From Ruminiclostridium josui JCM 17888 (lineage in GTDB: Bacteria > Bacillota > Clostridia > Acetivibrionales > DSM-1351), in assembly GCF_000526495.1 (NCBI RefSeq), contig NZ_JAGE01000002.1, forward strand, positions 248,001 to 312,000: a stretch of 64,000 nucleotides of DNA, read 5' to 3'. Below the pieces are notes generated by a model. That model was not told where the DNA came from and searched no databases. It saw nothing but the letters and a program-made list of their open reading frames with translations. The position numbers and the translations under genes are program-made. Of the stretch, positions 53,665 through 61,326 are shown piece by piece (within the stretch, counting starts at the first letter, position 1; the number at the start of each line of letters is the position of its first letter).

Positions 53665-55731
53665 ATGATGTCAAATCAAATAGCAGTTTTCTTTATAGTA
53701 TGTGTAATCTTGTATGTAATCGGAGCATTGACATCTCTAGCTTCATTTGCAAGTCCAAAGTGGTCAAACAGATTGTCAAATACCTTTGCACTTTTAGCAA
53801 GCAGCTTACTTACATTCTTAATGATTTACAAATTGGTATATTCCAGAGACATATCAATAAATTTAAATTTTAATACCAATATTCCTTTTTTCACTGTAAA
53901 GTTTAATATTGATAATCTATCAGCTTTTTTTATATTGATTATTTCAATAGTAGCAATTATTGTTTCGTTATTCTCATATACATATATGTCCCACTATATT
54001 TCAAAAAAAAATATATCTATTTTCGGTTGTTTGTACAACTTGTTTATTGTCTCAATGGTTCTTTTGGTTTCAAGCAGCAACCTGCTGCTTTTCTTAGTTT
54101 TTTGGGAACTGATGTCTCTTATTTCTTTTTTTCTCGTTATATTCGAGCATGGAAAAGAGGAGGTTCAGAAAGCCGGCAGAATATACATTATAATGACTTA
54201 TACTGGAACTGCTTGCATTACAGCAGCTTTTGTTTTGATTGCAGCCTATACAGGTAGTTTTAATTTTACATCAATTAATTTGCAATCCATACCTCAAGGC
54301 GCAGCTAATTTTATTTTTATCCTTCTGCTAATTGGATTAGGAACCAAAGCAGGTATTATACCTGTTCATATCTGGTTGCCATATGCTCATCCGGTAGCTC
54401 CTAGCAATATATCAGCCTTAATGTCGGGTGTTATGATAAAGATGGCTGTTTATGGTCTCATAAGATTTATTTTTAATGTTCTTCCTGCTGGTGATTTGTG
54501 GTGGGGAGTACTTGTCCTTTGCATAGGTATTGTTTCAGCATTAATTGGAATTGCTTATTCCATCGCCTCTACTACAAACATTAAAAGGCTATTGGCATAT
54601 TCCAGCATAGAAAATATAGGGATTATTTTAGCAGCCCTTGGAATAATGCTTATTGCAAGAGCATCAAACAACCTGTTTCTTCTTTCGCTGTCCTTAACGG
54701 CAGTACTCCTGCATACCTTAAATCACGCGGTTTTTAAATCACTACTTTTCATGGGTGCAGGTGCAATTCAATATTCAGCACATACCAAGAATATGGAGAA
54801 ACTGGGGGGGTTAATAAAAAAAATGCCTTTAGCCTCAGTGTTTATTTTCATAGGTTGTCTTTCTATTTCTGCAGTACCGCCTTTTAACGGATTTATAAGC
54901 GAATATATGATTTTTAGGACTATTATTAGCAGTATCAGCTATTTTGCACCATTACAAAGCTTCCTTCTGGTTGTAATCTTAATGGTAGCTGCAGCTGCAC
55001 TTGCTTTAACCGGAGCTTTGGTTGCATTCTGTTTTGTTAAATTCTTCGGTATTTGCTTTTTGGGAATGACAAGAAGTAAAGAAGCAGAGAATGCCAAGGA
55101 GCCGGGTAAGCCTATGATTATGGCACTTGCGTCAGCTGCAGTGCTTTGTCTGTTGCTTGGTATTTTCCCAAATTATGCTATAAAACTTATAGATAGCGTT
55201 GGCAGTCAATTGATTTATATAAAGCTGTTAACAACAAACTGGTCGCTACTACCATCAGAATATTATCCTGCGAATAACAGTAGATTAAGCATACCTTCGG
55301 GACTTATTGCTCTTCTGCTGGTAGTGTTGGGAGCTATAGTATTGTTAGTAGTAATGGCACTGAGAAAAAGAACTTTTGTCCAACGATATAATACATGGGA
55401 TTGCGGGTATACAAAGCTAAACTCAAAAATGCAGTATTCTGCAACCGGATTTTCTAAATCTTTGAGAATTATATTCAGAGGATTATTTAAACCTGTAAGA
55501 GACTTAGAAATAACAGAAGGAATTGCACCTTATCATATTAAAGCTGGTAGATATACAACATCTACGGTAAAATTTTTTGAAAAATATTTATACCAACCTT
55601 TTGTTAAAAGTATAATTTATTTTTCAAGGAAAATCCGTTTTACCATTCAGACAGGGAGTATACATGCATATTTAATGTATTTCTTTGGGATTATGGTGCT
55701 TATGCTTTTATATTATTCATTTACAGCATAA
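53665..55731 (+). CDS. Ehr/Hyf-type complex membrane subunit, antiporter-like (HyfB/NuoL-like)
   Basis: 688 residues, about 14-16 membrane helices, proton_antipo domain with LLLFLVFWELMSLISFFLVIFEH, GTKAGIIPVHIWLPYAHPVAPSNISALMSGVMIKMAVYG and TNIKRLLAYSSIENIGIIL, as in HyfB/HycC/EchA-type subunits. Charged residues inside helices (Glu in the FWELMS segment and Lys in GTKAG and MIKMA) are those used for ion translocation in the family. The C-terminal part adds helices and a cytoplasmic stretch (YNTWDCGYTKLNSKMQYSATGFSKSL) also seen in HyfB proteins. First gene of the operon, ATG 53665, SD GGAGG. Confidence 0.9.
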   Translation: MMSNQIAVFFIVCVILYVIGALTSLASFASPKWSNRLSNTFALLASSLLTFLMIYKLVYSRDISINLNFNTNIPFFTVKFNIDNLSAFFILIISIVAIIVSLFSYTYMSHYISKKNISIFGCLYNLFIVSMVLLVSSSNLLLFLVFWELMSLISFFLVIFEHGKEEVQKAGRIYIIMTYTGTACITAAFVLIAAYTGSFNFTSINLQSIPQGAANFIFILLLIGLGTKAGIIPVHIWLPYAHPVAPSNISALMSGVMIKMAVYGLIRFIFNVLPAGDLWWGVLVLCIGIVSALIGIAYSIASTTNIKRLLAYSSIENIGIILAALGIMLIARASNNLFLLSLSLTAVLLHTLNHAVFKSLLFMGAGAIQYSAHTKNMEKLGGLIKKMPLASVFIFIGCLSISAVPPFNGFISEYMIFRTIISSISYFAPLQSFLLVVILMVAAAALALTGALVAFCFVKFFGICFLGMTRSKEAENAKEPGKPMIMALASAAVLCLLLGIFPNYAIKLIDSVGSQLIYIKLLTTNWSLLPSEYYPANNSRLSIPSGLIALLLVVLGAIVLLVVMALRKRTFVQRYNTWDCGYTKLNSKMQYSATGFSKSLRIIFRGLFKPVRDLEITEGIAPYHIKAGRYTTSTVKFFEKYLYQPFVKSIIYFSRKIRFTIQTGSIHAYLMYFFGIMVLMLLYYSFTA

Positions 55732-55767
55732 TTAAAAATTTTATCTACAATAAAAAGGATTGTTAAT

Positions 55768-56706
55768 ATGTTTGTGTCAATGTTGAAGTTTATTTTTCAA
55801 ATGTTTTTTATACTTTTAATATCTCCGCTATTTACCGGGGTAATAAGGAAAATCAAATCAAAAATACAGCATAAAATAGGTGCTTCGGTTTTTCAACCCT
55901 ATTATGATTTGATAAAGCTATTAAAAAAAGATTTGGTGGTATCAAATACCTCATCTTGGATTTATAATGTGGCACCATATGTTTATTTTATAACTTCCCT
56001 TGCAGCAGCTATGTGTTTGCCTGTAGTATATCAATTGAGGGGGTTTTCCTTGTATACTGACCTTCTGGTAATAGTTTATTTTTTTGTGGCCGGACGTATT
56101 TTTATGGCTCTGGCAGGACTGGACACTGGAAGTACATTTGGAGGGATGGGAAGCAGCAGAGAATTACTGATTTCAGCTTTGGTTGAACCTGCGCTTTTTC
56201 TTATTATTATAACAGTAGGTGCAAATCCCGAGATTGCTTCAACAAGCGTTTTTTCAATATACGATTATGTAGTAGAAAACAGCTCTAATACTTTTTCAAC
56301 TATAAATATATTGCTGTTTGCAGCCATGTTGATGGTAATGATTGCGGAGTCATCCAGAATTCCGGTTGATGATCCGTCAACACATCTTGAGCTTACCATG
56401 GTCCACGAAGCAATGACTTTGGAATACTCGGGAAGACATCTTGCTTTCATTGAAATGGGTACATATATAAAGCAATTGGTATTTATGACTTTTATGGCCA
56501 ATATATTAATTCCCCTTGGATTAAACGCGGAAAGTTTAATAGTTGGACTTGGCATATATCTGTTAAAAATAGTAGTAATTACTATTTTAGTTGGTGTTAT
56601 TGAGATTAATACAGTCAAATTCAGGCTTTTCAGTCTTCCAAACTATGCTGTAATTGCTCTCATTATTGCTGTTTTAGGTTTTTTAACCCGCTTTGTTTTG
56701 AGGTAA
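55768..56706 (+). CDS. Ehr/Hyf-type complex NuoH-like membrane subunit (HyfC)
   Basis: 312 residues, about eight membrane helices, NuoH/HycD family: ISPLFTGVIRKIKSKIQHKIGASVFQPYYDLIKLLKKD near the start, GGMGSSRELLISALVEPALFL and the conserved acidic segment MIAESSRIPVDDPSTHLELTMVHEAMTLEYSG. This subunit connects the hydrophilic arm to the ion-moving arm. SD AAAAGGA precedes ATG 55768, 36 bases after the first gene. Confidence 0.92.
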   Translation: MFVSMLKFIFQMFFILLISPLFTGVIRKIKSKIQHKIGASVFQPYYDLIKLLKKDLVVSNTSSWIYNVAPYVYFITSLAAAMCLPVVYQLRGFSLYTDLLVIVYFFVAGRIFMALAGLDTGSTFGGMGSSRELLISALVEPALFLIIITVGANPEIASTSVFSIYDYVVENSSNTFSTINILLFAAMLMVMIAESSRIPVDDPSTHLELTMVHEAMTLEYSGRHLAFIEMGTYIKQLVFMTFMANILIPLGLNAESLIVGLGIYLLKIVVITILVGVIEINTVKFRLFSLPNYAVIALIIAVLGFLTRFVLR

Positions 56707-56731
56707 AACAATATGGTATGGAGGTAAATAA

Positions 56732-57394
56732 ATGTACAATAATGCTTTAAACCTTTTGGCAATTCTAATATTGATTTCATCTTTTAGACTAGTGGCCAAT
56801 AAACGTCAAAATGGTTATATTACAACTTTCAGACTTCAGTCACTTTTACTAGCTTTGATTTCACTAATTATTTCAGTTAAAAGCATGGTTGAAACAAAAA
56901 AGTTTGATGAGGTTATTATTATATTTGTTCTTATAGTAGTATTTAAAGTAATAGTGATTCCAATGGCTCTGAGAAAAACCTCCGACAAGGTGGAATACAA
57001 GGTAGAAAAAGATTTTTTTATAAATATACCTATTTCAATGCTTTTATGTTGCGGATTGGTTGTTCTTTGTTGGTACGTTGTTCATCATGTAGAAGGTATT
57101 ACAAATCCTACAACTGAAAATTATCTTGTTTATTCGTTATCAGTTGTTATGATTGGATTATTCTTTATGATAAGCAGAAAAAAGGCATTGGGACAGATTA
57201 TCGGATTTCTTGTAATAGAGAATGGTTTGTTTTTGGCAGCCATGATGACGACTGATGGAATGCCGATGATTGTTGAGCTTGGTCTTTTCTTTGACTTATT
57301 AACTGCATTTTTAATTATGGGTATATTTGTTTTTAAGATTAATAGTACATTTGATTCAATAGATGTAAATAAGTTAAAGCATTTAAAAGGTTAA
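56732..57394 (+). CDS. Ehr/Hyf-type complex subunit HyfE-like
   Basis: 220 residues with about six membrane helices; the C-terminal half (GQIIGFLVIENGLFLAAMM...ELGLFFDLLTAFLIMGIFVFKI) contains the NuoK-like helices with a buried Glu in the VIEN and VELG positions. The family is HyfE. Sits 25 bases after the NuoH-like gene, with GGAGG SD. Confidence 0.87.
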   Translation: MYNNALNLLAILILISSFRLVANKRQNGYITTFRLQSLLLALISLIISVKSMVETKKFDEVIIIFVLIVVFKVIVIPMALRKTSDKVEYKVEKDFFINIPISMLLCCGLVVLCWYVVHHVEGITNPTTENYLVYSLSVVMIGLFFMISRKKALGQIIGFLVIENGLFLAAMMTTDGMPMIVELGLFFDLLTAFLIMGIFVFKINSTFDSIDVNKLKHLKG

Positions 57395-57418
57395 ATTATT
57401 GAGTTTCAGGGAGGAAAT

Positions 57419-58906
57419 ATGATTCCGGCATTGATTGTTATACCGATACTGGCAGGTGGGCTGGTATGGATTAGTAAAAATAAATTATTTATACATACCA
57501 TAAATTTAATTGGAGCAGCAGGATTACTCATAATATCAATTCTGTCACTTATTGATATTAATAATAATAAGGTGATAACAAGCTCTGGTTTATTCAAAAA
57601 TCTTTTTTATATGGATTCACTAAGCGGTTATATATTGTTTATAACCGCATTGGCATTCTTTTTAGTTTCTCTCTACTCAATAAGTTATTTTGGACAGGAA
57701 TTAAAAGAAAAGGTTATTACAATTAGTAAGCTAAAGTTATATTATTCATTATCCAATGCATTTGTATTATCAATGATTCTGGCTTTAACTACTCGTAATA
57801 TGGGAGTTATGTGGATTTCAATTGAAGCTACCACTTTGGCTTCTGCGTTTTTGGTTGGTTTTTATAACAACAAACGCGCAATTGAAGCTGCTTGGAAGTA
57901 CCTTATTATTTGCTCTGTTGGTATTGCGTTTGCGTTGCTTGGAATCATTCTCCTGTTTTACTCGTCAACTGTCAAATTGGGAGGAGCAAGAATTTCGGGA
58001 CTTGATTGGAGTTATCTTATCAAATATGCGGTTTCCCTTGATCCAAGTATTTTAAAAATCGCATTTATTTTTATATTAATAGGTTTTGGTACGAAAATTG
58101 GTTTTTCACCTATGCATACCTGGCTTCCTGATGCTCATAGTCAAGCACCTTCGCCTGTAAGTGCACTTCTGTCGGGAGTATTGCTTAATACGGCAATGTA
58201 TGGAGTAATAAGGGTTATGTCCATTGTGAATAAATGCCTGGGAAACAGTAATTACACTGGAAATCTGCTGATTTTACTGGGGGTACTTTCAATTGGCACT
58301 GCGGCTTTATTCATACTGGTACAGCAGGATTATAAACGTATATTGGCGTATTCCAGTATAGAACATATGGGAATCATTGCTTTAGGTCTTGGAGTTTGTA
58401 CGCCAATAAGCATTTTTGCGGCACTTTATCATACCTTTAATCACGCAATGACAAAACTGATGTTGTTTCTGGCAACAGGAAATGTTTATTTGAAACACCA
58501 TACTAAAAAGATTTCCAGTATTCATGGCCTTATAAAAACAATGCCTGTAACAGGAGTTGTTTTTGTACTTGGTACTTTTGCTATAACTGGTATGCCTCCT
58601 TTTGGTGTGTTTATGAGCGAGTTTAATACTGTTGTGGGTACGCTGTTTTCCAAAAAGTATTTGGTAACAGCTTTGCTTTTAATATTTCTTTCAATGGTTT
58701 TTGCCGGATTTACAAAACAGTTGGGAAAAATGTTTTACGGAAGAAATGTTAACCCCGAAATAAAACAGGGTGAACTTGATATTATAGGGCCGGCAGTACT
58801 TATTGTTCTCTTATGTATTACGGTTTTGGCAGGGATATATATTCCGACGCCTTTCAAAGAGTTAATGGACAACACAACCAATATTATACTGGGAATTGGG
58901 GGTTAG
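57419..58906 (+). CDS. Ehr/Hyf-type complex antiporter-like subunit (HyfF/NuoN-like)
   Basis: 495 residues, about 14 membrane helices, proton_antipo domain with MWISIEATTLASAFLVGFYN, GTKIGFSPMHTWLPDAHSQAPSPVSALLSGVLLNTAMYG and DYKRILAYSSIEHMGIIALGLG. A second antiporter-type subunit in the same complex points to more than one ion path. The stop is three bases before the next start, typical of tight operons. SD GGGAGG. Confidence 0.9.
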   Translation: MIPALIVIPILAGGLVWISKNKLFIHTINLIGAAGLLIISILSLIDINNNKVITSSGLFKNLFYMDSLSGYILFITALAFFLVSLYSISYFGQELKEKVITISKLKLYYSLSNAFVLSMILALTTRNMGVMWISIEATTLASAFLVGFYNNKRAIEAAWKYLIICSVGIAFALLGIILLFYSSTVKLGGARISGLDWSYLIKYAVSLDPSILKIAFIFILIGFGTKIGFSPMHTWLPDAHSQAPSPVSALLSGVLLNTAMYGVIRVMSIVNKCLGNSNYTGNLLILLGVLSIGTAALFILVQQDYKRILAYSSIEHMGIIALGLGVCTPISIFAALYHTFNHAMTKLMLFLATGNVYLKHHTKKISSIHGLIKTMPVTGVVFVLGTFAITGMPPFGVFMSEFNTVVGTLFSKKYLVTALLLIFLSMVFAGFTKQLGKMFYGRNVNPEIKQGELDIIGPAVLIVLLCITVLAGIYIPTPFKELMDNTTNIILGIGG

Positions 58907-58909
58907 CTT

Positions 58910-60502
58910 ATGGTTTCGGAAGCTATTTTTGATACTATAAAGAAATTATTATCCACTCATGTACAAGAAAGCAGGCTTATCAATGACAATGAAATCTACT
59001 TCTGCATTTCTTCTTCCACTGTGAAGGAGGATTGCATTAATGTATACAATAATATTGAATGTGTACTTGTTAATTTATTTGCAAATGATACTACACCAAT
59101 TGACAACAAGCTAACTATATATTATACATTTGCCATAAGATCATCAAATACCCTATTTACATTGTATTCGAAACTTGAAAGTGATGGCTCGGCAAAGGTT
59201 GATTCCATAGCTTTGGAAGTTCCAGCTGCAAGCTTGTATGAACGTGAGATTCATGATATGTATGGAATAAACTTTGAAGGATGTCCTGACAGCAGGGAGT
59301 TGGTTCATCATGGAAATTTTCCTCTGAATGTGTATCCTTTAAGAAGGGATTTCAAAGCAAATACGAGACTTCCTTTTCAACAGCGGGAGTTAGAGTTTTC
59401 AACTATTACTGGAAAGGGTGTTTTTGAAGTGCCGGTGGGGCCTGTTCATGCAGGTATTATTGAGCCGGGCCATTTCCGATTCAGTGTGGCAGGGGAACCA
59501 ATAATAAATCTAGAAGCAAAACTATATTATGTACACCGAGGTCTTGAGAAACTATGTGAAAACCAACATTATATGAAGGTCCTTTTGTTTTCAGAAAGAA
59601 TTTCGGGAGATGAGACATTTACTAATTCACTGGCTTTCTGCCATGCAATTGAAAAGATAAATGGAATCACATATATACCAGAACGTGCAGCATATTCCAG
59701 AGTGATATTTGCAGAACTTGAACGTATATGTGGTCACTTGGGAGATATATCAGGACTATGTGTAGATACAGCTTATATATTTCCGTCAGGTCAATTTGGA
59801 ATGATGCGAAGATGGATACAACTTCTCAATGAACAACTAACAGGCAGCAGATTTCTTAGGAATACAAATAAACCAGGTGGATTAAGACGTGATTTTATAC
59901 GCAATAATGATAAGATTATTCTTGAATGCATAAGCAAGCTGGAAAAAGAGTTTAAGGATACAGTATCTATTATAAAAAATAGTGGAATGTTTATAGATAG
60001 AGTTGAGCATACAGGGATTTTAGAAAATTCCATTGCAGTTGATTTGAATGCTGTTGGGCCTGCAGGAAGGGCTAGCGGTGTAAAAACCGACGTGAGAAAG
60101 GATTTCCCATATGCGGCATATTCAAAACTGAAGTTTAATGTTCCAGAACATAATAATTGTGACGTTAATTGCAGAATGAACGTAAAAATAGAAGAAGTAA
60201 TGGAGTCTATAAATATTATAAGGCAGTCGTTGGGAAAGATGCCGGAGGAAGGGCCTGTATCAGTTGATATTGGGGATTTAAAGCCATATTCTTATGGATT
60301 TGGTTTGACAGAGTCTCCAAGAGGCGAAAATATACATTTTGTAATGACAGGTGAAAATAACACTATTTTCCGCTATAAAGTAAGAACGCCGTCTTTCTGT
60401 AACTGGCCGGCTCTATGTCATGCGGTAAATACCAATACTTTGACGGACTTCCCGTTAATAAATAAAAGCTTTAATCTCTCGTATGCAGGAAACGATTTAT
60501 AA
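58910..60502 (+). CDS. Ehr-type complex large subunit, NuoC-NuoD fusion lacking the NiFe cysteines
   Basis: 530 residues. Residues 1 to about 155 are NuoC/30-kDa-like (ALEVPAASLYEREIHDMYGINFEGCPD), the rest is NuoD/HyfG-like (FEVPVGPVHAGIIEPGHFRFSVAGEP, HRGLEKLCEN, ERICGHLGDISGL). In group 4 NiFe hydrogenases a CxxC follows at RxCGxC; here the same position reads R-I-S-G-D-E (residues 230-235). The C-terminal DPCxxC is S-F-N-L-S-Y (520-525), and only five residues follow, so no cleavable maturation tail. It therefore cannot hold a normal NiFe site. Probable substrate unknown. Confidence 0.88.
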   Translation: MVSEAIFDTIKKLLSTHVQESRLINDNEIYFCISSSTVKEDCINVYNNIECVLVNLFANDTTPIDNKLTIYYTFAIRSSNTLFTLYSKLESDGSAKVDSIALEVPAASLYEREIHDMYGINFEGCPDSRELVHHGNFPLNVYPLRRDFKANTRLPFQQRELEFSTITGKGVFEVPVGPVHAGIIEPGHFRFSVAGEPIINLEAKLYYVHRGLEKLCENQHYMKVLLFSERISGDETFTNSLAFCHAIEKINGITYIPERAAYSRVIFAELERICGHLGDISGLCVDTAYIFPSGQFGMMRRWIQLLNEQLTGSRFLRNTNKPGGLRRDFIRNNDKIILECISKLEKEFKDTVSIIKNSGMFIDRVEHTGILENSIAVDLNAVGPAGRASGVKTDVRKDFPYAAYSKLKFNVPEHNNCDVNCRMNVKIEEVMESINIIRQSLGKMPEEGPVSVDIGDLKPYSYGFGLTESPRGENIHFVMTGENNTIFRYKVRTPSFCNWPALCHAVNTNTLTDFPLINKSFNLSYAGNDL

Positions 60503-60525
60503 GTCTGCACGTATTAGGAGGAATA

Positions 60526-61326
60526 ATGTATAACATAGTAAAAAAGATGATACAGCATGGTACTGTTACTGTAGAGTATCCGAAAAAGAATACAAAAAGT
60601 ACTTATATTACAGGTATTCCAGCATTTGATTATTTAAAATGTACACGGTGCGGAAAGTGTATTTCTGCTTGTCCCACAGGGGCAGTTGTTCTGGTTGATA
60701 AGGATGGGGAAAAAGAGAAAGTTCCAGCAGTAAATACTGATGAGTGCATATTCTGCAAGTTTTGTGAAGAAGCCTGTTCAAACCAGGCAGTAAGACTATC
60801 AAATGAATTTGAGCTTGCCCAGAAAAGCAGAGATTTACTTAGAGCTGCCCCTTTATATATCAGAGACGAAGAAATAAATGGTACTGATTATGAAATAATT
60901 GGAAAAAAGTTAAATGATAAAGTTGGTAAGAAATTTGGAAGAAGCCTTAACATTAGGGAAGTTGATGCTGGCTCTTGCAATGGTTGCGATTATGAAATTC
61001 AAGCACTTAACGGTCCATATAACGATATTGAAAGATTTGGTATACATTTTGTTGCATCTCCCAGGCATGCAGATCTGCTCCTGGTGACAGGATGTGTTTC
61101 AAGAAACATGGAAGAAGCGTTGGTCAAAACATATAATGCGACCCCATCTCCTAAACTGGTAGTAGCAGTAGGAGCTTGTGCTTGCAGTGGTGGACTTTTC
61201 AAGGATAGTTATGCTGGAAGAAATGGGATTGACACTATTTTACCAGTAGATGTTTATATTCCGGGTTGTCCCCCTAGGCCTCAGGCATTAATTTATGGTA
61301 TACTAAAAGCAATTGGACGATTATAA
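60526..61326 (+). CDS. Ehr-type complex electron-transfer subunit: 2x[4Fe-4S] ferredoxin fused to NuoB-like domain
   Basis: 266 residues. The N-terminal half has two 4Fe-4S motifs, CTRCGKCISACP and CIFCKFCEEAC (HyfH/NuoI-like). The C-terminal half is NuoB/HyfI-like with the proximal-cluster ligands in DAGSCNGCDYEI, TGCVSR, ACACSGG and PGCPPRP. So the electron path to the large subunit is intact, although that subunit has lost its NiFe ligands. Elsewhere these two parts are usually separate genes. SD AGGAGG, 23 bases after the large subunit gene. Confidence 0.9.
   Translation: MYNIVKKMIQHGTVTVEYPKKNTKSTYITGIPAFDYLKCTRCGKCISACPTGAVVLVDKDGEKEKVPAVNTDECIFCKFCEEACSNQAVRLSNEFELAQKSRDLLRAAPLYIRDEEINGTDYEIIGKKLNDKVGKKFGRSLNIREVDAGSCNGCDYEIQALNGPYNDIERFGIHFVASPRHADLLLVTGCVSRNMEEALVKTYNATPSPKLVVAVGACACSGGLFKDSYAGRNGIDTILPVDVYIPGCPPRPQALIYGILKAIGRL

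Follow-up and report, generated by a model that had tools for sequence, protein, structure and literature searches.

An energy-converting hydrogenase-related complex without NiFe ligands in Ruminiclostridium josui and among its cysteine-less relatives

The stretch of DNA analysed here (hereafter the window) comprises 64,000 nucleotides of the Ruminiclostridium josui JCM 17888 genome (contig NZ_JAGE01000002.1, positions 248,001 to 312,000) and carries a six-gene operon for a membrane complex of the Ehr type (energy-converting, or Ech, hydrogenase-related). The six plus-strand open reading frames (ORFs; 53665-61326) are all open and uninterrupted, and their Pfam and NCBIfam matches assign them to HyfB, HyfC, HyfE, HyfF, HyfG and a fused HyfH-HyfI (Table 1), as the original prediction of six neighbouring Hyf-type genes had it. 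NuoH-, NuoL/M/N-, HyfE-, NuoB- and NuoC/D-like subunits are all present in the operon, as for Ehr, and among the six genes the same profiles recovered neither a formate dehydrogenase gene nor a NADH module of the NuoE, NuoF and NuoG type. We refer to the large subunit as EhrL and to the fused small subunit as EhrS. The genome (4.47 Mb, two contigs) encodes in addition a separate Ech-type hydrogenase (L025, L180; the label was assigned from motif and size), the large subunit of which is likewise of group 4 type and 32% identical to EhrL, but has CGIC and DPCISC intact.

Table 1. Coordinates of the features discussed (window positions; clade A and the alignment rows are defined in the text)
Feature	Position	Strand	Evidence or conservation
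HyfB-type antiporter-like subunit, 688 amino acids (aa)	53665..55731	+	PF00361 1.2e-53; NF005086 4.1e-194 (646.8 bits, below the 667 cut-off)
HyfC / NuoH-type membrane anchor, 312 aa	55768..56706	+	PF00146 7.1e-37; closest solved chain is formate hydrogenlyase (FHL) subunit 4
HyfE-type subunit, C-terminal half NuoK-like, 220 aa	56732..57394	+	NF008556 3.9e-30 and PF00420 6.5e-05, each below cut-off
HyfF-type antiporter-like subunit, 495 aa	57419..58906	+	PF00361 1.3e-56; NF005044 7.6e-141 (below cut-off)
EhrL / HyfG-type large subunit, 530 aa	58910..60502	+	PF00346 2.9e-47; PF00329 2.6e-18; FHL subunit 5 (HycE) 2.4e-79
EhrL Glu185, MbhL E21 place	59462..59464	+	alignment; 80/83 Cys-less rows
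EhrL RISGDE, residues 230-235, RxCGxC place	59597..59614	+	S232 83/83, D234 77/83, E235 29/83 Cys-less rows
EhrL Asp286, Nqo4 D139 and MbhL D121 place	59765..59767	+	D in 77/83 Cys-less rows, G in 25/25 four-Cys rows
EhrL C-terminus NKSFNLSYAGNDL, residues 518-530, DPCxxC place	60461..60499	+	conservation counts in Cys-less rows (see text)
EhrS, fused HyfH (two [4Fe-4S] ferredoxin) and HyfI / NuoB-type small subunit, 266 aa	60526..61326	+	PF01058 2.1e-33; PF00037 4.3e-12; FHL subunits 7 and 6
Eight ferredoxin-domain cysteines, EhrS residues 39-84	60640..60777	+	all eight in 24/24 clade-A rows
Four proximal-cluster cysteines C151, C154, C218, C248 of EhrS	60976..61269	+	24/24 clade-A rows
Cysteine-rich ORF between complex and NifS-type gene, 80 aa	61374-61616		no Pfam/NCBIfam match at E 0.001
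Cluster-ligand-less small subunits of Cys-less Ehr operons, no ferredoxin domain	L102, L104, L107, L113, L116, L122, L123, L124, L125, L126, L135		

Residues 230-235 of EhrL read RISGDE, residues 520-525 read SFNLSY and the protein stops at residue 530; both NiFe-binding motifs are lost, and the letters and their numbering agree with what had been predicted. HycE (which we take to be a group 4a enzyme) has RVCGIC and SLDPCYSC opposite these motifs, and in this alignment the places of the four ligand cysteines of group 4 [NiFe] hydrogenases (RxCGxC, DPCxxC) are taken by Ser232, Glu235, Ser524 and Gly527. Cysteines from elsewhere in EhrL were considered as stand-ins, a possibility that the original prediction had named as one that could overturn it, and none (0) was found aligned with a ligand position. 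To judge by the missing ligands, an ordinary NiFe site is excluded. The absence of a maturation tail had been listed beside the lost motifs and is correct as an observation, but it carries no information, because the intact Ech-type large subunit of the same genome (L025) also ends directly after DPCISCTER; as a sign of lost hydrogenase function it was rejected.

Searches at genus, order and phylum level delimited a set of 34 loci scoring above the first locus with all four ligand cysteines (clade A, from which the far weaker L047 and L048 were left out). Their large subunits are identical in 34/34 cases at positions 185, 232-235, 286, 518-520, 522-525 and 527-530, and the 22 loci compared with the window all have the six genes in unchanged order (20 clade-A genomes plus L080 and L081; L167 starts inside HyfE at a contig end, and L080 and L175 are one contig). 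With ratios of non-synonymous to synonymous substitution rates (dN/dS) of 0.06-0.10 (ten pairs, five close genomes), the complex is under purifying selection. A sequencing error that would restore the CxxC pairs, like decay of the locus, could be dismissed on these grounds: the letters are the same in 34/34 orthologues, dN/dS is low and every ORF is open. Within the genus the complex occurs in 11/11 genomes searched (74-100% identity), all 11 also holding the Ech-type subunit; in the order it occurs in 21/58 genomes (54-100% identity), the remaining matches being relatives of 28-37% identity, and of 398 genomes drawn from the phylum, 54 had a relative reaching at least E 1e-60, a count that takes in four-Cys forms.

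Beyond clade A, we compared 83 rows without the ligand cysteines (Cys-less) with 25 four-Cys rows (these counts leave out L047, L048, L066, L087, L132, the partial L139, the duplicates L079 and L080, most genus members and rows more than 85% identical). The two sets switch sharply at eight positions: at 232, 234, 286 and 494 the Cys-less rows have S, D, D and P where the four-Cys rows have C, A/V, G and A, and at 496, 522, 524 and 527 they have F, N, S and G where the others have Y, E, C and C. Asn518, Lys519, Ser520, Tyr525 and Asp529 are constant in both. At the C-terminus of the Cys-less rows N518, K519, S520, S524, Y525 and D529 are each found in 83/83, G527 in 82/83, N522 in 75/83 and N528 in 60/83, and Arg387 is mostly kept. 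Across the aligned clade-A subunits a polar replacement set (Ser232, Asp234, Glu235, Asp286, Asn522, Ser524, Gly527, Asn528, Asp529) is shown to be fixed. Several other EhrL cysteines are near-fixed in the clade (C244, C284, C497 and C503 in 33/34 each, C421 in 32/34); C244, C284 and C497 are also frequent among four-Cys relatives, while C421 and C503 are largely peculiar to clade A (21 and 23 of the 83 Cys-less rows, clade A included), and at neither place does cysteine rank among the top three letters of the four-Cys rows. The AF2 model of EhrL (pLDDT 93.4) superimposes on HycE (7z0s_E) with a VIA Z of 50 and a root-mean-square deviation of 1.8 over 521 residues, so that the predicted fold is HycE-like, and we infer that residues 286 and 494-496 line the cavity. 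By sequence, too, the solved chains nearest to EhrL and EhrS are those of Escherichia coli formate hydrogenlyase-1; it differs in the four NiFe cysteines of HycE and in its formate dehydrogenase, for which the six genes of the complex have no counterpart.

The small subunit has kept all its Fe-S cysteines, as predicted: eight of ferredoxin type and four proximal ones, the latter with an SCNGC motif of hydrogenase-like C-x2-C spacing, in every clade-A row (24 small-subunit rows from 23 distinct contigs, L080 and L175 being one). The membrane arm retains most of the conserved charged residues of the complex-I type. HyfB has E148, K228, K259, K358 and K459, HyfC has an acidic loop (E194, E208, E214, E219), and HyfF has E136, K226 and K346, with Asn257 at the usual Lys place of transmembrane helix (TM) 8 as the exception (TM5 Glu, TM7 Lys and TM8 Lys being the labels that we presume for the antiporter-like subunits). 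Asn is also the commonest letter at the equivalent of HyfF 257 in other Ehr loci. The original description of an ion-pumping or ion-driven complex thus holds as far as an Ehr-type assembly without NiFe ligands, with its Fe-S ligands and main pump residues kept, is concerned; the direction is not readable from sequence.

Ehr complexes are described as having lost NiFe-binding cysteines in passages of PMC6349859, PMC10284858, PMC4378227, PMC10432482 and PMC12342949, and their function is called unknown in those of PMC10284858, PMC4378227, PMC12342949 and PMC6147122. By its subunit set, its group-4-type large subunit lacking both NiFe CxxC pairs (the family being marked by the loss of one or both) and its tree position with the Ehr of named organisms, the window complex is, on sequence grounds, a member of this published family, as had been proposed. 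The subunit set, the lost cysteines and the antiporter-like subunits are shared features (also in the passages of PMC3569383), while the window clade differs in the fusion of its ferredoxin to the small subunit and in a wholly fixed SGDE...SFNLSY.GNDL set, of which the Ehr passages of PMC6349859, PMC10284858, PMC4378227, PMC10432482, PMC3569383 and PMC12342949 hold no description. The best 80 named loci listed include Nitrospira moscoviensis and other Nitrospira, Nitrososphaeria, Acidobacteria, Rokubacteria, Saganbacteria and several groups of the Candidate Phyla Radiation (CPR); for CPR Ehr, passages of PMC7304191 mention the lost cysteines and leave the small subunit undescribed.

The EhrL tree (motif columns masked, Ech outgroup) was built by a quick method, and several of its deep forks are unsettled (33/116 inner branches below 80). 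The window row belongs to a clade of 24 rows, all from Bacillota-type loci (support 100), which joins Nitrospira, Nitrososphaeria and CPR rows in an 87-row group (support 91). Four-Cys Ehr subunits (mostly CGxC ... ELCYxC) lie at the base. They have GPxHAGIIEPGHFR and NKSF.L.Y in common with the Cys-less group, just outside which they branch, and differ from it in their retained CGxC or CAxC and LCYxC and in Gly, not Asp, at 286; Desulfotomaculum ruminis EhrL (Desru_3264), which retains four cysteines according to a passage of PMC3569383, probably belongs to the same group. The Cys-less label needs two changes, the second of which is accounted for by the nested partial row L132, and one four-Cys row (L085) sits at an unsettled fork inside the 87-row, otherwise Cys-less or partial group; on this tree the Cys-less form would need about one origin. 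A Desulfosporosinus-bin EhrL (L087) has Ser, Cys, Ser, Cys at the ligand places and is possibly an intermediate of cysteine loss. The divergent L047 and L048, with RIACES or RVACES and NKSFNMSYSENDR, represent a second form without ligand cysteines.

The relatives differ strikingly in their small subunits. Among 78 named loci, 70 were readable (the 8 in which no small subunit was found are uncounted), 53 of them with a Cys-less EhrL. Seven or eight ferredoxin-domain cysteines are kept in 2/53, both with a full proximal site, and about half of them in 9/53; 31/53 have at most one, together with three or four proximal cysteines, and in 11/53 there is at most one ferredoxin-domain and at most one proximal cysteine, three or four proximal ligands having been lost. 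Of the Nitrospira-, Rokubacteria- and Saganbacteria-type loci that were read, most have the proximal site only; the forms without a complete cluster site are CPR-type loci and a Dehalococcoidales/Altiarchaeales-type group. The 11 cluster-less loci sit in two separate parts of the tree (2 changes), and their proximal ligand places read T/D-C-D-D in seven CPR-type loci, S-E-G-D in L123 and D-T-D-N in L124, L125 and L135. Cluster loss was not a single staircase, because the ferredoxin-domain state changes six times on the EhrL tree; most four-Cys loci have the ferredoxin fused to the small subunit, like clade A, and in L086 a separate two-cluster ferredoxin gene stands between the large- and small-subunit genes.

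The EhrL subunits of these 11 loci have nonetheless nearly the same cavity as the window. E185, S232, G233, D234, N518, K519, S520, S524, Y525 and D529 are all unchanged, D286, N522 and G527 are found in 10/11 each and N528 in 7/11, while at 235 three loci have Glu and the 8 of CPR type have Ser/Thr; the five HyfB pump letters are the same as in the window in 10/11. In 8/8 CPR-type loci the small-subunit gene lies directly upstream of HyfB. The cluster-less protein is the sole PF01058 protein found in 5/11 genomes, further ones occurring in the other 6. A search of 379 genomes of one phylum with such loci gave 14 matches, 11 ligand-less (L203 among them, counted on its small subunit alone), two with four cysteines and one too short; the query was itself cluster-less and favours such matches, and 4 of the 11 are genomes already counted. 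With modest confidence, the ligand-less protein is predicted to retain a NuoB fold (AF2 model of one such subunit, pLDDT 74.3; NuoB-type chains at Z 11.9-13.7 among the matches listed).

We reason that the window complex could be a ferredoxin-linked cation pump, in which proton-coupled chemistry that is not that of H2, and probably not that of a quinone, takes place in the rebuilt polar cavity; we would give this reading roughly even odds. Low-potential electrons would enter from ferredoxin and pass on to the proximal cluster, where they would drive, or in reverse be lifted by, the proton-coupled chemistry in EhrL; HyfC would then link this chemistry to the transport of cations through HyfB and HyfF. 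Glu185 is retained at the hydrogenase proton-transfer position. The cavity is probably proton-accessible, and the acceptor would be something other than H+/H2 and probably not a prenylquinone, a small polar ligand being judged likelier than a quinone. The fixed gene order, the 34/34 letters, the low dN/dS, the 12 cluster cysteines in 24/24 rows, E185 in 80/83 rows, the pump residues and the fit to HycE (Z 50) all speak for this reading.

Several observations weigh against it. Not every lineage needs electrons delivered to the cavity, because Cys-less sublineages have lost three or four proximal ligands and the ferredoxin domain; the earlier suggestion that ferredoxin electrons reach some acceptor is possible for the window clade, but relatives with a near-identical cavity are without the Fe-S ligands. 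Sequence by itself does not tell which way electrons or ions flow, nor which ion and acceptor are involved, and no shared partner gene beside the operon was recognized in the flanks of 20 of the 34 clade-A genomes and of L080 and L081 (gene names there were assigned by reading only). The near-fixed C421, C497 and C503 may form a clade-specific or other metal site. The window genome also has, on contig C1 (L179:7429-9774), a UbiA-type, MqnP-like prenyltransferase gene (below cut-off) adjoining one for an MqnL-type TIGR03701 menaquinone decarboxylase (628 bits against a cut-off of 496), and a quinone made from a scavenged precursor (salvage route) is possible there; this pair weakens the argument that the organism is without quinone.

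The main rival reading, prompted by the small subunits without ligands, is a complex that is not basically an oxidoreductase, in which the cavity would power or gate the movement of cations by binding or converting a small ligand or by relaying protons. An Fe-S chain that has been kept, like that of the window complex, would serve redox regulation or be an ancestral component of secondary function. We hold this to be possible, if rather doubtful. It would account for the 11 loci at two places on the tree that keep nearly all cavity and pump letters, for the CPR-type gene placement and for the 5 genomes in which the ligand-less protein is the only one of its family, but the 12 cluster cysteines kept throughout clade A argue for a working electron chain in the window, position 235 is Glu there and Ser/Thr in the 8 CPR-type loci, and function may vary between lineages; moreover, the other PF01058 proteins in 6/11 genomes, the biased query with its recounted genomes and the draft state of these metagenome-assembled genomes temper the counts. 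Another rival has its precedent in MBS of Pyrococcus furiosus, a NiFe-less relative of MBH and complex I (PMC7684303, in the passages on this complex), which shows that such a relative can work by reducing sulfane sulfur at the proximal cluster itself. A polysulfide reductase of this kind appears improbable for the window: of the four NiFe-site cysteines MBS retains two, it has no counterpart of MbhL E21, and its cluster loop is shortened, the proximal cluster being bound by three cysteines (same passages), whereas EhrL has no site cysteine and keeps Glu185, and EhrS has a four-Cys proximal site with C-x2-C spacing. Least probable, with a very slim chance, is a cryptic hydrogenase, possibly formate-linked, with the metal centre held by other residues. 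The HycE-like fold overall, the mostly kept E185 and Arg387 and the near-fixed cysteines elsewhere are compatible with it, as are, in the passages concerned, the suggested link of Ehr to formate dehydrogenases and H2 in Geobacter sulfurreducens, whose proteome showed higher levels of Ehr subunits on formate than under hydrogen-containing conditions (PMC7894505), and the formate dehydrogenase-Ehr complex proposed for Riflemargulisbacteria (PMC6349859). However, the ligand places hold Ser, Glu, Ser and Gly, the two serines and Gly527 being invariant or nearly so in the Cys-less rows, and Ehr expression in N. moscoviensis was no higher with H2 (passage of PMC12342949).

A quinone-like site as in complex I, which the original prediction had named as possible, is poorly supported, and a complex-I-like, ion-pumping ferredoxin:quinone oxidoreductase is in our view unlikely. 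EhrL does resemble NuoD / Nqo4 in the fold of approximately residues 167-530 (Z 44.7-47.2 among the matches listed), in the absence of NiFe cysteines and in the Asp at the D139 place, but it lacks the proposed quinone-headgroup residues of Nqo4, H38 and Y87 (passages of PMC7684303), which align with Ile184 and Gly233. Complex I also has a NADH module, which is absent from the six genes themselves. Asp286 was dropped as a mark of quinone binding, the hydrogenase MbhL having Asp at the same place and the relatives L037, L039 and L049 having Glu. Markers of quinone biosynthesis do not follow the complex either. MenD exceeds its cut-off in 5/34 clade-A genomes and PF02621 (MqnA/D) is strong in 2/34 and weak in one (G701), which together with the MqnP-like/TIGR03701 pair is what favours a quinone; on the other side, 27/34 genomes, the window's among them, have neither MenD above cut-off nor a strong MqnA/D match. 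UbiA exceeds 150 bits in 8/34 and has no match at all in G029, G030, G607 and G582 (G030 has a sub-cut-off match to the MenD model). The window genome gave no PF02621 match and a MenD-model match only below cut-off (MqnC and MqnE were not searched for). Strong MqnA/D matches go instead with the four-Cys group (L062-L077), unlike Cys-less clade A, being present in 15/16 genomes (one of the 16, G635 with L066, has three of the four cysteines).

The surroundings of the operon are variable. A NifS-type gene and one more gene follow the complex in 9/23 loci (the genus and near relatives), and other flanks vary. Between the complex and the NifS-type gene of the window lies the short cysteine-rich ORF of Table 1, found in the order in 18/21 genomes with the complex and 6/37 without; it was rejected as a subunit because it is distant from the complex in G028 and on a different contig in G029, G030 and G031. 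Rnf as an alternative outlet for ferredoxin does not discriminate between the readings (RnfC_N has no match in the window genome and is present in 15/34 clade-A genomes).

Ehr complexes are spread over many bacterial and archaeal phyla, and the relatives suggest that neither hydrogen nor ordinary quinone chemistry is what takes place in the rebuilt pocket. Three features are new from this comparison: four-Cys Ehr at the base of the family, approximately one origin of the Cys-less form, and small subunits without cluster ligands in two sublineages, the last of which may have been reported before. Tentatively, Ehr might be seen as a natural series of complex-I relatives losing their redox centres, from four-Cys forms with full clusters, via three cluster sites (as in the window) and the proximal site only, to forms with no complete site. 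Polar cavity and pump stay much alike along the whole series, and the core work of the family would be redox-independent, ligand- or proton-driven cation transport. The conserved residues that have replaced the former active site offer mutational and structural studies a defined target, and the near-same cavity without an apparent Fe-S cluster in relatives offers a test of whether a complex-I-type pump may run without electrons, with a bearing on how Q-site chemistry in complex I couples to distant ion movement.

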